Assembly (NCBI GenBank): GCA_001768195.1
Contig: MENI01000060.1
Coordinates: forward strand, 1-40,075
Direction of reading: 5' to 3'
Length of the DNA: 40,075 nt
DNA from: Bacteroidetes bacterium GWA2_40_15
Lineage (GTDB): Bacteria; Bacteroidota; Bacteroidia; Bacteroidales; VadinHA17
The stretch's first letter is position 1; each line of letters starts with the position of its first letter. A program made the position numbers and the translations under genes. The notes below the pieces were generated by a model. The model had not been told where the DNA came from. It made no database searches and was given only the letters and a program-made list of their open reading frames with translations. Positions 2,308 to 8,470 of the stretch are shown piece by piece.

Positions 2308-5300
2308 ATGGGGAAACGGTTTCCTGAATACAAAGGCCTTGATCTCCCGAAAGTAAATAAAGAGATCCTCAAGGTTTGGGATGAGAACGATACATTTCAT
2401 AAGAGCATTCGTGAAGTGAACGGGAAAGGGGAGTTTGTCTTTTATGAAGGTCCTCCTTCTGCAAACGGAATTCCCGGAATACACCACGTGATGGCCCGTA
2501 CGATCAAGGATGCTATCTGCCGTTTCAGGACACAGAGTGGTTATGAGGTAAAACGCAAGGCCGGATGGGATACTCATGGTCTTCCTGTTGAACTGCAGGT
2601 TGAAAAAAACCTTGGCATCACCAAGGAAGATATCGGAAACAAGATCTCAATTGTAGATTTCAATAAAGCCTGCCGGACCGATGTAATGAAATACACCGAT
2701 CTGTGGGAAGAGCTTACAAGGAAAATGGGCTACTGGGTGAATATGGATCATCCATATGTTACCTATGACAACCGTTATATAGAAACTCTCTGGTGGCTTC
2801 TCAAACAACTTTATTCAAAAGGTTACCTCTACCAGGGTTATACCATTCAGCCTTATTCACCGGCTGCCGGAACAGGACTGAGCTCTCATGAACTTAATCT
2901 GCCCGGCTGTTACCGCGATGTTAAGGATACAACATGCATTGCCCTGTTCAAGGCGGTAAAAGATAAAAAGTCGGAGTTCCTGTATCACGATCTGGATACA
3001 AAAGAAATTCATTTTATGGCCTGGACAACCACTCCGTGGACACTTCCTTCGAATACCGCTCTTGCGGTAGGAAGAGATATAAGATATGTAAAGGTAAGAA
3101 GTTTTAATCCCTATTCAGGCGATCCGGTAACGGTTATCCTGGCAAAAGAGCTTCTTTATTCAATTTTCCCTGAATCAAATACCGGCCTGCATCTGTCAGA
3201 TTACCAGACAGGAGATAAAAAGATCCCCTTCAAAATAACAGGAGAGTTTGCAGGAGCTGACCTGAAAGGAATATTGTATGAGCAGCTGATCGATTGGGTG
3301 AATCCCGGGAAGGGGGCTTTCCAGGTACTTACAGGCGATTTTGTTACTACCGAGGACGGAACGGGTATAGTTCATATTGCTCCTACATTTGGCGCCGACG
3401 ACTACCGTATTGCGAAAGAGAATGGCGTGCCTCCTCTGATCATGAAGAGAAAAGACGGCTCTATGGGACCGATGGTTGATAAGCGCGGATATATGGTCCC
3501 TCTGTCTGACCTTGATGAGAATTTTGTAAAGGACTTCGTGAATGTTAAAACCTATTCCGGGTTTGAGGCAAAAGCCGTTAAAAACGAATATGATGATACC
3601 CTTTCACCGGATGCAGAGTCTCTCGATGTTGAGATTGCCGTGATGCTTAAACAACAGGGCAAGGCCTTCAGAATTGAAAAACAGGTTCACAATTACCCTC
3701 ACTGCTGGAGAACAGATAAACCAGTTCTTTACTATCCGCTTGATGCATGGTTCATACGTACTACAGCATTCCGTGAGCGAATGATAGAGCTCAACAATAC
3801 GATCAACTGGAAACCTCAATCGACCGGTACAGGCAGATTCGGCAAGTGGCTCGAAAACCTTGTCGACTGGAACCTTTCCCGTTCACGTTTCTGGGGAACT
3901 CCACTTCCGATATGGGTTACAGAGGAGAGGAAAGAGGAAAAATGCATCGGATCAGCTTCTGAGCTCAAAGCTGAAATTAAGAAATCAATTAAGGCCGGTT
4001 TCATGAAATCAAATCCCCTTAAGAATTTCATTGAGGGAGATAACTCCCAGGAGAACTATGAGAAGTTTGACCTTCACCGTCCGTTTGTTGATGAGATAAT
4101 ACTGGTAAGTGATTCAGGAAAGAAGATGTTCCGCGAACCCGATCTTATTGATGTATGGTTCGATTCAGGAGCAATGCCTTATGCACAGGCACACTATCCT
4201 TTTGAGAACAAAGAGAATTTCCATGAGATGTTCCCGGCAGATTATATTGCGGAAGGTGTAGATCAGACAAGGGGCTGGTTCTTCACACTGCATGCTATTG
4301 CAACAATGATATCCGATTCGGTATCATTTAAAAATATCATATCAAACGGTCTTGTATTGGATAAGAATGGCAATAAGATGTCGAAAAGGCTTGGAAATGC
4401 CGTTGATCCATTCACCACAATTGAAGAGTATGGTTCAGATCCTCTCAGGTGGTATATGCTTACTAATGCACAGCCATGGGATAATCTGAAATTCGATATT
4501 TCAGGGGTGGATGAGGTAAAACGCAAATTCTTCGGGACCTTATACAATACATATTCATTTTTTTCGCTTTATGCCAATGTTGACAATTTCAGGTATTCTG
4601 AAAAGGATATACCTGTAAATGAGAGGCCCGAGATAGACAGATGGATAATCTCTCTCCTGAACTCACTTGTAAAAGAGGTTACAAACTGCTACAATGATTA
4701 TGACCTTACCCGTGCAGGACGCGCAGTCCAGGATTTTGTTACCGAAAACCTGAGCAACTGGTATGTCCGCCTCAACCGCAAACGTTACTGGGGTGGGGAG
4801 TACGACAGGGACAAGCTTGCTGCCTACCAGACACTTTATACATGTCTGGAGACAGTCAGTCAGCTGGCAGCGCCTATAGCTCCTTTCTATACCGAACGTC
4901 TCTTCACGGACCTCAACAGCATTACCGGAAGGCATAAGGATAGCTCCGTTCACCTGGCCCTCTTCCCGGGATATGATGAGTCGCTTATCGATAAAGCCCT
5001 CGAGGAGAGGATGGACATAGCCCAGAAGATATCATCGATGATACTCGGCCTGAGGAGAAAAGTGAGCATAAAGGTACGTCAGCCCCTGGCGAAGATAATG
5101 GTGCCGGTTCCTGATAAAACCTTTAAGAATAAATTCGAAGCAGTTAAAGATCTGATTCTTGCAGAGGTGAATGTCAGGGAGGTCGAATACATTGATGACA
5201 CCGCATCAATCCTGGTGAAGAAGATCAAACCCAACTTCAAGACACTTGGACCAAAATACGGCAAGCTGATGAAGGATATCAGCAATGCAGTTGTTGCCCT

Positions 5301-5739
5301 TGGTTCGAAGGATATTATGGCTTTTGAAAATAATAAGAGCTATCAGCTCATTATTAACGGACAGGAGGTTGCACTTACAATTGATGATGTTGAAATAATA
5401 TCAGAAGATATTCCCGGCTGGCAGGTTGCAAATGAGGGCAAACTTACAGTAGCGCTTGATGTTAAAGTCACGGATGAATTACGGAATGAAGGCATCGCGA
5501 GAGAGTTTGTCAACAGGATCCAGAATATCCGCAAGGAGGCAGGGTTTGATGTTACTGACAAGATCACTGTTAAGATCGAAGATATTGATTTCGTAAGGGA
5601 AGCCGTCAAAAAGCACTCAGCTTACATTGGCTCGCAGACACTGGCAACGGCTGTAACTCTTACTTCCACTTTTTCTGGTAGTGTGAGAGAAGTGGAGATT
5701 GATGAGGTTGTGGTGAAGGTGGAGGTGAGGAAGAATTAA
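2308..5739 (+). CDS. ileS: Isoleucyl-tRNA synthetase, long (eukaryote-like) type
   Basis: It charges tRNA-Ile with isoleucine in the cytosol. At 1143 residues it is longer than the roughly 940-residue zinc-finger type and fits the type II, eukaryote-like class. The HIGH-equivalent GIHH is at residues 57-60 (context GIPGIHHVMARTIKD) and KMSKR is at 690-694. The editing domain lies between, with AWTTTPWTLPSNTALAV near its start, and WFDSGAMPYAQ precedes KMSKR. The C-terminal anticodon-binding region continues to EVVVKVEVRKN, with no cysteine zinc-finger cluster visible at the C-terminus. Family knowledge: this class tolerates mupirocin; resistance here is inference. A -7 box sits upstream, and a repeat element starts right after the TAA stop. 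Confidence 0.96.
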   Translation: MGKRFPEYKGLDLPKVNKEILKVWDENDTFHKSIREVNGKGEFVFYEGPPSANGIPGIHHVMARTIKDAICRFRTQSGYEVKRKAGWDTHGLPVELQVEKNLGITKEDIGNKISIVDFNKACRTDVMKYTDLWEELTRKMGYWVNMDHPYVTYDNRYIETLWWLLKQLYSKGYLYQGYTIQPYSPAAGTGLSSHELNLPGCYRDVKDTTCIALFKAVKDKKSEFLYHDLDTKEIHFMAWTTTPWTLPSNTALAVGRDIRYVKVRSFNPYSGDPVTVILAKELLYSIFPESNTGLHLSDYQTGDKKIPFKITGEFAGADLKGILYEQLIDWVNPGKGAFQVLTGDFVTTEDGTGIVHIAPTFGADDYRIAKENGVPPLIMKRKDGSMGPMVDKRGYMVPLSDLDENFVKDFVNVKTYSGFEAKAVKNEYDDTLSPDAESLDVEIAVMLKQQGKAFRIEKQVHNYPHCWRTDKPVLYYPLDAWFIRTTAFRERMIELNNTINWKPQSTGTGRFGKWLENLVDWNLSRSRFWGTPLPIWVTEERKEEKCIGSASELKAEIKKSIKAGFMKSNPLKNFIEGDNSQENYEKFDLHRPFVDEIILVSDSGKKMFREPDLIDVWFDSGAMPYAQAHYPFENKENFHEMFPADYIAEGVDQTRGWFFTLHAIATMISDSVSFKNIISNGLVLDKNGNKMSKRLGNAVDPFTTIEEYGSDPLRWYMLTNAQPWDNLKFDISGVDEVKRKFFGTLYNTYSFFSLYANVDNFRYSEKDIPVNERPEIDRWIISLLNSLVKEVTNCYNDYDLTRAGRAVQDFVTENLSNWYVRLNRKRYWGGEYDRDKLAAYQTLYTCLETVSQLAAPIAPFYTERLFTDLNSITGRHKDSSVHLALFPGYDESLIDKALEERMDIAQKISSMILGLRRKVSIKVRQPLAKIMVPVPDKTFKNKFEAVKDLILAEVNVREVEYIDDTASILVKKIKPNFKTLGPKYGKLMKDISNAVVALGSKDIMAFENNKSYQLIINGQEVALTIDDVEIISEDIPGWQVANEGKLTVALDVKVTDELRNEGIAREFVNRIQNIRKEAGFDVTDKITVKIEDIDFVREAVKKHSAYIGSQTLATAVTLTSTFSGSVREVEIDEVVVKVEVRKN

Positions 5740-5740
5740 A

Positions 5741-6253
5741 GGCGCAACGGCGCAAAGGCGCAGGGGCCTAACGAGAAGAAAAATAGGCGTAAGTTAATAA
5801 CATTTTCCCCTCCTTTTGAAGGAGGGGTGGCCGCAACACAATGACAGCTAATGCATTGCGAGGTCTTTTTGCGGCCGGGGTGGTTGATTTGTCTTTCCGA
5901 TCGATTCATTTCCATTATTTGTGACTTTCCTTATCTCAATTTTCCAATATTCAGGATCCCGAACACAAATCTGTTTTCAAACCTTAATACAGTGATTCCA
6001 ATGCTCTTCAGGTAGATATCCCCTTTTTCATCTATTTTATTCAACATGGAAATAAGGTAATAAGAGACTAGTAAATCAACCACCCCGGCCGCATATATTC
6101 ATTGTAACATATTAAATATCTGTGTGCTGCGGCCACCCCTCCTTCAAAAGGAGGGGAAACTTATTTACCCTACTTTCCTGCCATTGTACAGTTTCACTCT
6201 TACTCCATTCCTTTCTTACCATTGCGCCCTTGCGCCGCTGCGCCGTTGCGCCT
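5741..6253. repeat. Nested palindromic repeat, family A, locus 2, enclosing a gene remnant
   Basis: The locus has three nested layers. Outer: GGCGCAACGGCGCAAAGG at 5741-5765, with reverse-complement words at 6219-6253. Middle: 31 bp at 5804-5834 exactly inverted at 6129-6159; each arm is a CCCCTCCTTTTGAAGGAGGGG-like hairpin followed by TGGCCGC. Inner: 21 bp at 5870-5890 exactly inverted at 6073-6093, with key word GGCCGGGGTGGTTGATTT. Between the inner arms lies a degenerate DUF559 fragment on the - strand. The element fills most of the ileS-dnaG gap and begins 1 nt after the ileS stop. Confidence 0.92.
5848..6047 (-). pseudogene. Degenerate C-terminal fragment of a DUF559 (endonuclease-fold) protein
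   Basis: Reading the - strand from 6047, the frame gives MLNKIDEKGDIYLKSIGITV followed by LRFENRFVFGILNIGKLR and a stop at 5931. The segment YLKSIGITVLRFEN (6014 to 5973) matches the conserved end of DUF559 proteins, small relatives of Vsr and restriction endonucleases. A one-base frame change near 5940-5960 restores a plausible tail: EIRKVTNNGNESIGKT, then NQPPRPQKDLAMH, ending at a TAG at 5848. This tail is read through the inner inverted repeat (AATCAACCACCCCGG). The N-terminal part and the catalytic residues are absent, so it is a relic. The match is from memory of the family. Confidence 0.72.
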
Positions 6254-6311
6254 TTCTTATTCTCCAATAACAAAATTCTTATCCCTTAATCCCAATTAGC
6301 CAATTAACTGA

Positions 6312-6319
6312 TATCTTTG
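6312..6319 (+). promoter_or_regulatory. -7 box of the dnaG promoter
   Basis: TATCTTTG is an exact TAnnTTTG match ending 4 nt before the dnaG ATG. If used, transcription would begin at or beside the start codon, giving a leaderless or nearly leaderless mRNA. No clear -33 TTTG is visible. Confidence 0.5.
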
Positions 6320-6323
6320 ATCC

Positions 6324-8270
6324 ATGATCGACCGCTTCACCATAGACCGTATTCTCGATGCCGCACAAATAGTTGATGTGGTGGGTGAATTCGTACAACT
6401 GAAAAGGAGGGGTGTCAACTACCTTGGCTTGTGCCCTTTTCACAATGAAAAAACCCCTTCATTCACAGTTTCTCCATCGAAAGAGATATTCAAGTGTTTT
6501 GGCTGCGGGAAAGTTGGCAACTCGGTCAATTTTGTAATGGAGCACGAACATCTCACCTACCCCGAAGCGCTTAAATACCTTGCAAAGAAATACCACATAG
6601 AGGTTGACGAAAAAGAACTCAGCAGGGAAGAGCTTGAAAAACAGAATGAAAGGGAAAGCCTTCTTGTTGTTTCTGCATATGCTGCAAGACAATTCAGTGA
6701 GAATCTCTTTTCAACTGATGAAGGGATTTCGGTCGGACTGACATATTTCAAGGAGAGGGGATTCAGGCAGGATACCCTGAAGAAGTTTGAATTGGGATAC
6801 AGCTTTGAGAAACGGGATGCATTTTCGAAAAAAGCCCTCGGGGATGGATATAAGCAGGATTTCCTGGTAAAAACCGGACTCTCTATTCAGAGTGAGGACC
6901 GCATCTTCGACAGGTTCAGCGGAAGGGTGATGTTCCCCATTCACTCACTATCAGGCCAGGTGCTGGGGTTCGGCGGAAGAATACTCAAATCGGATGTAAA
7001 GACAGCCAAATACCTCAACTCTCCTGAATCGGAGATCTACCATAAGAGCCGGATCCTTTACGGCATCTTCCAGGCAAGGAAATCGATCACACATGAAGAA
7101 AAATGCTACCTGGTAGAAGGATACACTGATGTGATGTCACTTCATGAAGCCGGGGTAGAAAATGTGGTTGCTTCATCAGGAACATCTCTTACCCAGGAAC
7201 AGGTAAGGCTCATCAAGAGATTCACACCGAACATAACTATCCTTTATGATGGCGATCCTGCCGGTATCAAAGCCTCAATCAGGGGTATTGACATCGTCCT
7301 CGAAGAGGGAATGAATGTTAAGATCGTCCTCCTGCCCGAGGGAGAGGACCCTGATTCTTATTCAAAGAAAGTCAGTAATGAGGAGTTCAGCAGGTTCCTT
7401 AAGGAAAATGAGACTGATTTTATCCGTTTCAAAACCAAGCTCCTGCTTGAAGAGGCCAGCAACGATCCTGTAATGAAGGCAAACCTTATACGCGATGTTG
7501 TAAAATCGATAGCTGTAATACCTGAGGCGATAAACCGTACAGTATATATAAAGGAGTGCAGTACAGTGCTGGAAGTTGCTGAACCCATACTATACAACGA
7601 AGTTAACAAGCTGCGTGCTCAGAAAAACTTCCAGGACAGGAACAAATATCCCGGACCGGAGGACCTGCCTGTCAAACCTCAGCCTGTCATTAAGCCTGTT
7701 CAGCGTGAACCAGTATCATTCTATTCTGAACGGGAGATAATAAGGTTGCTCCTGAAGTTCGGCAGCACCGAATTTGAAAGGATGCTAAACAAGGAGGATG
7801 GGAAAGAGGACGTTCTGACAGTATCTGACTATATAGTAAGGGAGATAACATCCGATAATCTTGAATTTAATGACAAGGTATGTTCAAAGATCTTCAGTGA
7901 CTTCAGGTTTAATACGGAACAGGGACTTATCACCGGAGACAAACAGTTTGTAAAACACGAAGATCCTGAAATCTCAAGTCTTTCCGCTGACCTCCTCTCC
8001 GACTCCCATGAGCTAAGCCGTATCTGGCAGGATAAACAAACCTATGTTGAAACTGAGGAGATGAAGCTGAAAGAGATTGTTGGAGATGTTGTCCTGAAAT
8101 TCAAGAGTGACAAGATAATGATCCTCAGAAAAGAGATAATGTTCCAGCTCGAAGAAGCAGTTAAGACAAATGACCGGGAAAAAATACTGACACTTCAGAA
8201 GAGGTATGCGAATCTGAGTGTTGCCCTGGGGCTGATATCAAAAAAGCTGGGGAACAGGATATTGTTATAG
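6324..8270 (+). CDS. dnaG: DNA primase
   Basis: DnaG makes RNA primers at the replication fork and works with the DnaB helicase. The 648-residue protein has the normal order: CHC2 zinc finger with ligands C37, H40, C58 and C61 (CPFH...CFGC); the catalytic core from about residue 120; a TOPRIM domain with VEGYTD at 264-269 (E265) and DGDPAG at 309-314 (D309, D311) as metal-binding acids; and a diverged C-terminal helicase-binding region after about 450. The ATG at 6324 is right because MIDRFTIDRILDAAQIVDVV is the expected N-terminus. It stands alone between two repeat loci; rpsU and rpoD are not adjacent here. Confidence 0.95.
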   Translation: MIDRFTIDRILDAAQIVDVVGEFVQLKRRGVNYLGLCPFHNEKTPSFTVSPSKEIFKCFGCGKVGNSVNFVMEHEHLTYPEALKYLAKKYHIEVDEKELSREELEKQNERESLLVVSAYAARQFSENLFSTDEGISVGLTYFKERGFRQDTLKKFELGYSFEKRDAFSKKALGDGYKQDFLVKTGLSIQSEDRIFDRFSGRVMFPIHSLSGQVLGFGGRILKSDVKTAKYLNSPESEIYHKSRILYGIFQARKSITHEEKCYLVEGYTDVMSLHEAGVENVVASSGTSLTQEQVRLIKRFTPNITILYDGDPAGIKASIRGIDIVLEEGMNVKIVLLPEGEDPDSYSKKVSNEEFSRFLKENETDFIRFKTKLLLEEASNDPVMKANLIRDVVKSIAVIPEAINRTVYIKECSTVLEVAEPILYNEVNKLRAQKNFQDRNKYPGPEDLPVKPQPVIKPVQREPVSFYSEREIIRLLLKFGSTEFERMLNKEDGKEDVLTVSDYIVREITSDNLEFNDKVCSKIFSDFRFNTEQGLITGDKQFVKHEDPEISSLSADLLSDSHELSRIWQDKQTYVETEEMKLKEIVGDVVLKFKSDKIMILRKEIMFQLEEAVKTNDREKILTLQKRYANLSVALGLISKKLGNRILL

Positions 8271-8470
8271 GCACAGGGGCGCAAGGGCACAAGGGCGCAA
8301 CGGCTGATGTCCCGTACGGGACGGCAGAAAAAATGATGCTTTGGCTTTCTACCGATGTTAAGTGCATGCTGGCGCCGATTTACAATCGGCGCCATTTATT
8401 GTATGGCACGGATCACAGATCCGCGCCAGCGGTGCGTTTGAGCCATTGCGCCCTTGCGCCGTTGAGCCAT
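8271..8470. repeat. Nested palindromic repeat, family A, locus 3
   Basis: Outer arms: GCACAGGGGCGCAAGGGCAC and related words at 8271-8312, and the reverse-complement words GCCATTGCGCCCTTGCGCCG at 8441-8460 within 8438-8468. The inside differs from loci 1 and 2: a GTCCCGTACGGGAC perfect palindrome near 8320, then a separate inverted pair (8368-8430, listed on its own). It starts immediately after the dnaG TAG. Confidence 0.85.
8368..8430. repeat. REPIN-like inverted pair, GCTGGCGC type
   Basis: Two 27-nt imperfect palindromes face each other: 8368-8394 starts GCTGGCGCCGATTT and 8404-8430 ends GATCCGCGCCAGC. The second reversed matches the first at about three quarters of positions, and each also folds on itself (GGCGCCGAT..ATCGGCGCC). 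Two palindromes in inverted order with a short AT spacer is the layout of REPIN elements. The word GCTGGCGCGG also occurs in two family B copies (17600-17612 reversed, 23449-23459). Confidence 0.8.

Follow-up and report, generated by a model that had tools for sequence, protein, structure and literature searches.

The 40,075-nucleotide stretch of DNA analysed here, hereafter called the window, is contig MENI01000060.1 of Bacteroidetes bacterium GWA2_40_15. Between two genes of this contig, nested inverted repeats enclose the end of a DUF559-type gene. The locus raises the question whether the gene and the repeats travel as one mobile unit and, if so, which enzyme moves it.

The DUF559 relic and its inverted arms

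The features of the site are listed by their position in the window.

2308..5739, + strand: flanking gene for a class I aminoacyl-tRNA synthetase, which we take to be IleRS
5738..5781, + strand: outermost inverted layer, made of GCGCAAAG/GCGCAACG-type repeats, a separate dispersed repeat; its partner lies at 6212-6255
5783..5797, + strand: what is left of the outer terminal repeat CATAGSCGTYAACYTAAG, decayed to ATAGGCGTAAGTTAA and recognised by reading the sequence against sister copies, in which the repeat is intact
5804..5890, + strand: left inverted arm, with the hairpin CCCCTCC..GGAGGGG, a GGCCGC..GCGGCC segment and the inner end GGGGTGGTTGATTT; found by inverted-repeat search, belonging to an arm family with about 100 genomic sites
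5804..5835, + strand: left half of the outer perfect layer of 32 bp; right half at 6128-6159
5807..5827, + strand: hairpin CCCCTCCTTTTGAAGGAGGGG; inverted copy at 6136-6156
5856..6041, - strand: degenerate 3' portion of a DUF559 gene, found by tblastn, whose frame continues into the inner repeat (INHPGR)
5870..5890, + strand: left half of the inner perfect layer of 21 bp; right half at 6073-6093
6073..6159, - strand: right inverted arm, found by inverted-repeat search and 82% complementary to the left arm
6324..8270, + strand: flanking gene for the DNA primase DnaG

The two arms are 87 nt long each, with a spacing of 182 nt. The initial annotation had described two exactly inverted, nested layers of 31 and 21 bp. 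The nesting and the length of the inner layer were confirmed, but the outer layer measures 32 bp. There is also a third exact layer (17 bp; 5738-5754 and 6239-6255), which is marginal when taken alone, because exact inverted repeats of up to 16 bp arose when window positions 5701-6260 were shuffled 300 times in blocks of two. Rfam gave no match in window positions 5000-7000.

Other parts of the window carry nested repeats as well. The contig begins in the terminal part of a further copy of the outer repeat (positions 22-39 and ~36-119; CTTAGCTTGACGGCTATG). This copy sits within a hairpin doublet that belongs to a second family (GAAGGGGGTCTTATTCCTACCC...), and this doublet family appears again at ~2154-2240. 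The first 12 kb contain three pairs of inverted arms of the GCGCAAAG/GCGCAACG type (1194-1462, 5738-6255 and 8270-8468), and each of these arm pairs encloses, by reading, other hairpins in a nested Russian-doll pattern.

The gene fragment between the arms was identified with tblastn. The intact copy L008 matched window positions 6032-5856 on the minus strand (query region 5700-6260; E 9e-12, 50% identity over 60 residues), in line with the DUF559-type 3' end that had been proposed on this strand, and the matched stretch contains one in-frame stop. Two other intact copies of the same genome, L004 and L006, matched the same region with E-values of 1e-6 and 9e-5. In a PF04480 profile search the relic alone stayed below the threshold, whereas the intact sister copies L006 and L008, to which tblastn relates it, passed the curated cut-off. 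The profile check that the initial annotation had set for the fragment thus gave a mixed outcome.

The DUF559-matching frame enters the inner repeat as ...RQINHPGRKKTSQ and aligns there with the true C-terminus of L008, ...KSINHPGRNQPLQ; within the repeat it reads INHPGRKKTSQ, as at the L008 C-terminus. The gene end is co-linear with the repeat, as originally claimed, but the tail quoted in support of that claim (NQPPRPQKDLAMH) belongs to reverse-strand frame 1 and not to the DUF559 frame. The window copy is a dead, internally deleted but otherwise ordinary member of a family of mobile units.

Dispersed copies and the outer terminal repeat

The genome that contains the window (4.77 Mb in 127 contigs) has 32 matches to the PF04480 profile, of which 12 are near full length and the remainder are fragments. 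Nine of these 12 copies are free of internal stops, one of them (L009) containing a run of N. Six of the nine stop-free genes belong to the arm family of the window (L001, L003, L004, L006, L008, L009), some of them with variant arms or interrupted by N or by the end of a contig, and the other three (L005, L007, L010) lie within different hairpin arms. A genome search with the hairpin CCCCTCCTTTTGAAGGAGGGG, allowing at most three mismatches, yielded 97 forward and 102 reverse matches, against none in either direction for the reversed control. Since CCCCTCCTTTTGAAGGAGGGG is near-palindromic, these matches represent about 100 sites. Paired arms were found in at least 37 copies among the 61 stretches that were read (the window and L031-L090), and inverted palindrome doublets recur as repeated units also at L235 and L145 of cyanobacterial plasmids. 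The abundance of arm sites and the intact DUF559 copies within the window's arm family support the earlier suggestion that gene and arms travel together, and we have hardly any doubt that the units are mobile.

Among the relatives, the draft genome G020 (98% complete, ~410 contigs) contains 22 arm hits and 10 DUF559 matches, and its copies carry the outer repeat. One truncated DUF559 gene in this genome (profile positions 34-107, one stop) is present in three copies at separate places, as would be expected if defective copies move in trans. Across 37 genomes of the genus, DUF559 was found in all 17 genomes with CCCCTCC arms versus 13 of the 20 genomes without them (p 0.009, rank correlation 0.50, uncorrected for kinship); a further 22 genomes (G061-G082, eight of them with arms) fall outside this comparison. 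Two genomes, G009 and G033, have kept the arms and show only weak DUF559 matches. Among 247 genomes of Bacteroidota, 19 contained at least two ACCCCYAAAYCCCC motifs and all 19 contained DUF559 (base rate 138/247), while of 18 genomes with a single motif 11 contained DUF559 and seven did not. This motif test is weak and adds little, because 16 of the 19 genomes belong to one family.

The outer terminal repeat CATAGSCGTYAACYTAAG is also dispersed in the window's genome, with 46 + 56 matches compared to 1 + 1 in the control, and many of the copies that carry it sit inside other GC-rich palindromes. We compared the flanks of 29 copies bounded by this terminal inverted repeat (TIR). The flanks matched best at a length of exactly 10 bp and at offset 0, with a mean match of 0.60 versus 0.40 in the permuted null (maximum 0.528 of 2000 permutations). 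Ten of the 29 copies matched at 8 or more of the 10 positions, and five matched perfectly. Hence, a target duplication of the kind that the initial annotation proposed to look for was found, but it is tied to a larger unit with an additional terminal repeat.

This larger unit is not typical of DUF559 loci. The outer repeat was present within 600 bp of DUF559 at 8 of the 12 loci of the window's genome, compared to 1 of 29 loci in relatives, 2 of 80 loci in named genomes and none of 16 plasmid loci. Moreover, L097 has CCCCTCC arms and DUF559 as in the window family, without the outer TIR. Because the CATAG-type outer repeat is rare near DUF559 elsewhere, it is not the common feature of the units, and because it is also missing at L097, we treat the outer layer as added. 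This layer, which is largely confined to the genus, may have accreted to the units through the action of a different transposase. The 10-bp duplications go with the outer repeat only, which fits the activity of a second enzyme. Two named loci outside the genus, L185 and L188, have a one-sided CATAG-type match at most 600 bp from DUF559, which could reflect either chance or a wider spread of the repeat.

The same data bear on a possible, though distinctly less probable, explanation, in which MITE-like units with the CATAGSCGTYAACYTAAG TIR are moved in trans by a DDE transposon that makes the 10-bp duplication, while DUF559 and the hairpins are cargo or the remains of the target. The exact duplications at TIR-bounded copies agree with it, and an ISAs1-type transposase is present in the genome at contig ends. 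Contigs of this draft often end in the CATAGSCGTYAACYTAAG repeat as well, so that a longer partner could be absent from the assembly. However, the 29 TIR-bounded copies measure 182-914 bp, which is short for a DDE gene, and of the two longer pairs that were read, L120 has no open reading frame of more than 90 codons inside and L121 holds a Y1 gene instead. No transposase with CATAGSCGTYAACYTAAG ends was found in the TIR pairs and contig ends that were read, PF13808 being the family searched for. The ISAs1 copy that was read gives no support for ISAs1 as the owner of the CATAG ends, since by reading it ends in CAGGGTCAACGCA. The arms and DUF559 without TIR at L097, and the scarcity of the TIR near DUF559 loci elsewhere, also argue against this explanation.

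A spread of the hairpins as REPs by Y1 (RAYT/TnpA-REP) transposases, with DUF559 merely inserted beside them, is unlikely. A Y1_Tnp match was found in 35 of 41 relatives, and the hairpin doublets resemble REPINs. At L121 (G000:C67:7000-11000), a Y1 (RAYT-like) transposase gene of 154 codons at positions 1406-1867 has its own GC-rich hairpins and lies between two CATAGSCGTYAACYTAAG ends, one of which has three mismatches. Yet the profile search gave no Y1 (PF01797) match in G020, in spite of the many arms and DUF559 matches of this genome, which disfavours a Y1 transposase as the mover. Furthermore, the inverted arms bracket DUF559 itself.

Association of the arms with DUF559 and occupation of host genes

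We scored inverted arms within 250 bp of 109 DUF559 loci, comprising 29 loci from relatives and 80 on contigs of named genomes (the best 80 of 449 confirmed). Removal of seven duplicates left 102 unique loci, of which 13 were unusable owing to short flanks or N, so that 89 remained. An arm score of at least 13 was reached at 59 of these 89 loci versus 4 of 182 control ORFs taken from the same contigs (p 5e-32), while 30 of the 89 loci had no arms at this score. When only control ORFs of at most 220 codons were considered, the count was 1 of 70. The possibility that DUF559 genes are flanked by arms no more often than other genes is clearly at odds with these counts. Many DUF559 reading frames end in tails translated from the repeat, as the initial annotation had proposed for Bacteroidota.

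Two other controls were rejected: mismatched pairs of flanks, in which arms common to sister elements inflate the score, and an initial set of ORFs, in which spurious scores arose from stretches of N and from ORFs at the edges of contigs. A search for hairpins with a stem of 6 found them at 38 of 95 DUF559 loci versus 1 of 189 controls. We treat this as a secondary count, because hairpins of the CCCCTTTAGGGG type escape it.

The association extends to plasmids. Sixteen plasmid loci were picked out of 43 records for the spread of their hosts, and in 10 of these, from three phyla, the arms exceeded all 100 block-of-two shuffles. These 10 were five of the six cyanobacterial loci, the loci of Azospirillum lipoferum, Sphingomonas and Sphingobium, and both Deinococcus loci. 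The other six (L150, L303, L304, L306, L310 and L311) did not exceed all shuffles, although degenerate arms are visible by eye at L150. On a Pseudanabaena plasmid (L145) a whole hairpin doublet stands on each side of DUF559, and one of the two is repeated in tandem downstream. In the cyanobacterial plasmids L146-L150, the annotation of the records places the DUF559 units within or next to defence-type loci (DUF1156, DUF499, PglX and BrxC).

Occupied and empty alleles were found at several sites. At the window site, three congeners were read among nine loci fetched. The site is empty in G009, where 7 bp separate the flanking genes, it has another filler in G002, and it is occupied in G015 by an element that retains the opposite end of the DUF559 gene. 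The comparison of empty and occupied sites that had been suggested at the outset thus yielded both states. At six further congener loci, blastn placed the flanking genes ~1.0-1.3 kb apart.

The PglX gene of cyanobacterial plasmids is empty in L236 and L237, contains a hairpin doublet without a gene in L235, and contains DUF559 between arms in L150. In the DUF1156 gene, L147 carries a unit, whereas L231-L234 are empty at this site. L147 and L150 do not count as in-frame cases, because their records annotate the host gene as split. In the genus of G300, the UvrD-type helicase genes of 12 genomes were aligned, of which four were occupied, seven empty and one carried a remnant; a listing of 61 genomes includes more in which the two flanks almost abut. 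In G300 and G335 the arms of this unit are present at other positions too. No clear target duplication was seen at the UvrD-type and PglX sites.

Some units are read through as part of the gene around them. Twenty loci were taken from 27 with open frames of at least 839 aa among the matches listed, a selected set from which no rate can be derived. In 16 of the 20, the DUF559 domain lies within the long open frame and is flanked by peptides resembling translated hairpins (e.g. SPTGRGAGGEG); L251, L252, L253 and L255 were not recovered by the motif search and were left off the host list. Pfam, run on 10 of the 16 interrupted proteins, gave LeuRS, MetH, an Eco57I-type methylase, HsdM, and two each of type I HsdR, UvrD-type helicase and type ISP enzyme. 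Two more interrupted LeuRS genes are those of L094, which was compared with solved LeuRS chains, and L109. Between the host domains of the 10 proteins, Pfam (E 1e-5) gave only DUF559 and a weak MTES_1575 match, and no splicing domain. We regard such chimeric DUF559 genes as nested insertions and not as genuine multidomain proteins.

The position of the units within two of these hosts was recorded as well. In LeuRS of several Bacteroidota (L094, L109, L240, L242), the in-frame DUF559 and its hairpin-like peptides are near the editing domain, a placement based on Pfam for L240, on phmmer for L094 and on reading for L109 and L242. In MetH, the cobalamin-dependent methionine synthase, the in-frame unit lies between two B12-binding domains (L245 by Pfam, L248 by reading).

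The DUF559 nuclease and comparison with known systems

Eleven residues are invariant in 33 aligned DUF559 proteins (R24, T28, E31, W35, Q51, D60, F61, D73, G74, H77 and R87). An AlphaFold2 model of DUF559 (mean pLDDT 84) matched just two chains with an E-value of at most 0.001, namely 3hrl (NGO0050; E 5e-7) and 3r3p (E 1.6e-4), the latter being the catalytic domain of the homing endonuclease I-Bth0305I. According to this model, DUF559 is predicted to have an EDxHD/Vsr-like nuclease fold with conserved acidic and histidine residues of catalytic type. The section on inteins in PMC9403480 likewise places a DUF559 gene in the EDxHD family. For the inserts in the UvrD-type gene, three pairs gave dN/dS ratios of 0.05, 0.10 and 0.20, two of these pairs having a dS close to 1. 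Among five intact copies of the window's genome, the ratios of the ten pairs were 0.20-0.38. These low ratios imply that the DUF559 nuclease is under purifying selection.

A cellular role has been described for a DUF559 protein of Caulobacter. According to PMC12907096, VsrA is responsible for the DNA-damage response seen in a methylase mutant, and it is proposed there to act in mismatch repair as a Vsr-like enzyme; the words 'palindrom' and 'homing' are absent from the main text of that paper. It is very improbable that DUF559 is in general such a housekeeping Vsr-type repair nuclease, with ordinary terminators or chance palindromes as its arms, and for arm-bearing copies this is largely refuted by the up to 32 matches per genome, the decayed relics, the excess of flanking arms over control ORFs, and the unrelated genes that are occupied while their homologues are empty.

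The explanation that we favour, and consider fairly probable, is a hairpin mobile unit driven by DUF559, with non-autonomous derivatives, which would operate in the manner of REPIN-RAYT through an unrelated nuclease. The unit would consist of one gene, for a DUF559 nuclease of 120-150 aa with the Vsr/EDxHD fold, between inverted GC-rich hairpin arms. The nuclease may recognise the hairpin-bearing ends or targets and then cut or nick the DNA, after which repair or strand exchange would copy the unit elsewhere, frequently into a different GC-rich palindrome or into the linker of a coding gene. Copies without the gene would persist as REPIN-like hairpin doublets that can still be moved in trans. 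The recurrence of the unit, its spread in many copies, its tie to the arms, the empty and occupied sites, the in-frame hosts, the gene-less doublet, the conserved residues and the purifying selection were observed, whereas we infer the role of DUF559 as mobilising enzyme, its action on the arms and the route of copying. Points that speak against this explanation are the DUF559 loci without arms, the arms kept by G009 and G033 with only weak DUF559 matches, the lack of a clear target duplication at the UvrD-type and PglX sites, the Y1 transposases of most relatives, and the reading of DUF559 proteins as Vsr-type repair enzymes.

A broader proposal, on which we are evenly divided, is a pan-bacterial class of mobile DNA with the small DUF559 nuclease as its sole enzyme. 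Such a class would mobilise its own unit and, in trans, the doublets, would target GC-rich palindromes and protein linkers, and would be the source of many GC-rich palindromic repeats in Bacteroidota, Cyanobacteriota, Pseudomonadota and Deinococcota.

Bacterial genomes commonly contain GC-rich palindromic repeats, many of them without a known mover. The DUF559 domain is common as well, and its annotation is either unknown function or repair enzyme. If DUF559 is the motor, this would explain the patchy multicopy distribution, the repeat-derived tails and the presence of the units inside tRNA synthetases, methionine synthase and restriction enzymes. A small, expressible, named nuclease tied to palindromic repeats makes the question testable at the bench. 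In the open literature, with subscription papers and preprints outside the scope, no paper on DUF559 with inverted repeats was found, and the titles and abstract openings among the matches listed contained no description of DUF559-hairpin units.

The units share traits with four known systems. MITEs and ISAs1-type insertion sequences resemble many copies of the window's genome in their outer TIR and 10-bp duplication. In contrast to these elements, the search described above found no transposase with these ends, and the outer layer is absent near most DUF559 loci elsewhere. Rickettsia palindromic elements (RPEs) are, according to passages of PMC10969869, also found in frame within unrelated genes; they measure ~150 bp, whereas the full DUF559 unit encodes a nuclease.

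EDxHD homing endonucleases such as I-Bth0305I, as portrayed in parts of PMC3943268, have in common with the DUF559 units the predicted fold, the catalytic-type residues, and occupied and empty alleles at one site in host genes that stay open. Unlike these endonucleases, the DUF559 units have hairpin arms on both sides and many copies at non-allelic sites, and no splicing domain was seen in the DUF559 proteins scanned.

The REPIN-RAYT system, as outlined in passages of PMC3116915, likewise has a gene between inverted palindromes and many non-autonomous inverted doublets per genome. The linked gene, however, is a DUF559 gene of predicted Vsr/EDxHD fold here and a HUH Y1 transposase (PF01797) there, and DUF559 units also occur in frame inside coding genes. 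If the class proposed above exists, the REPIN-RAYT problem would have been solved a second time and independently.
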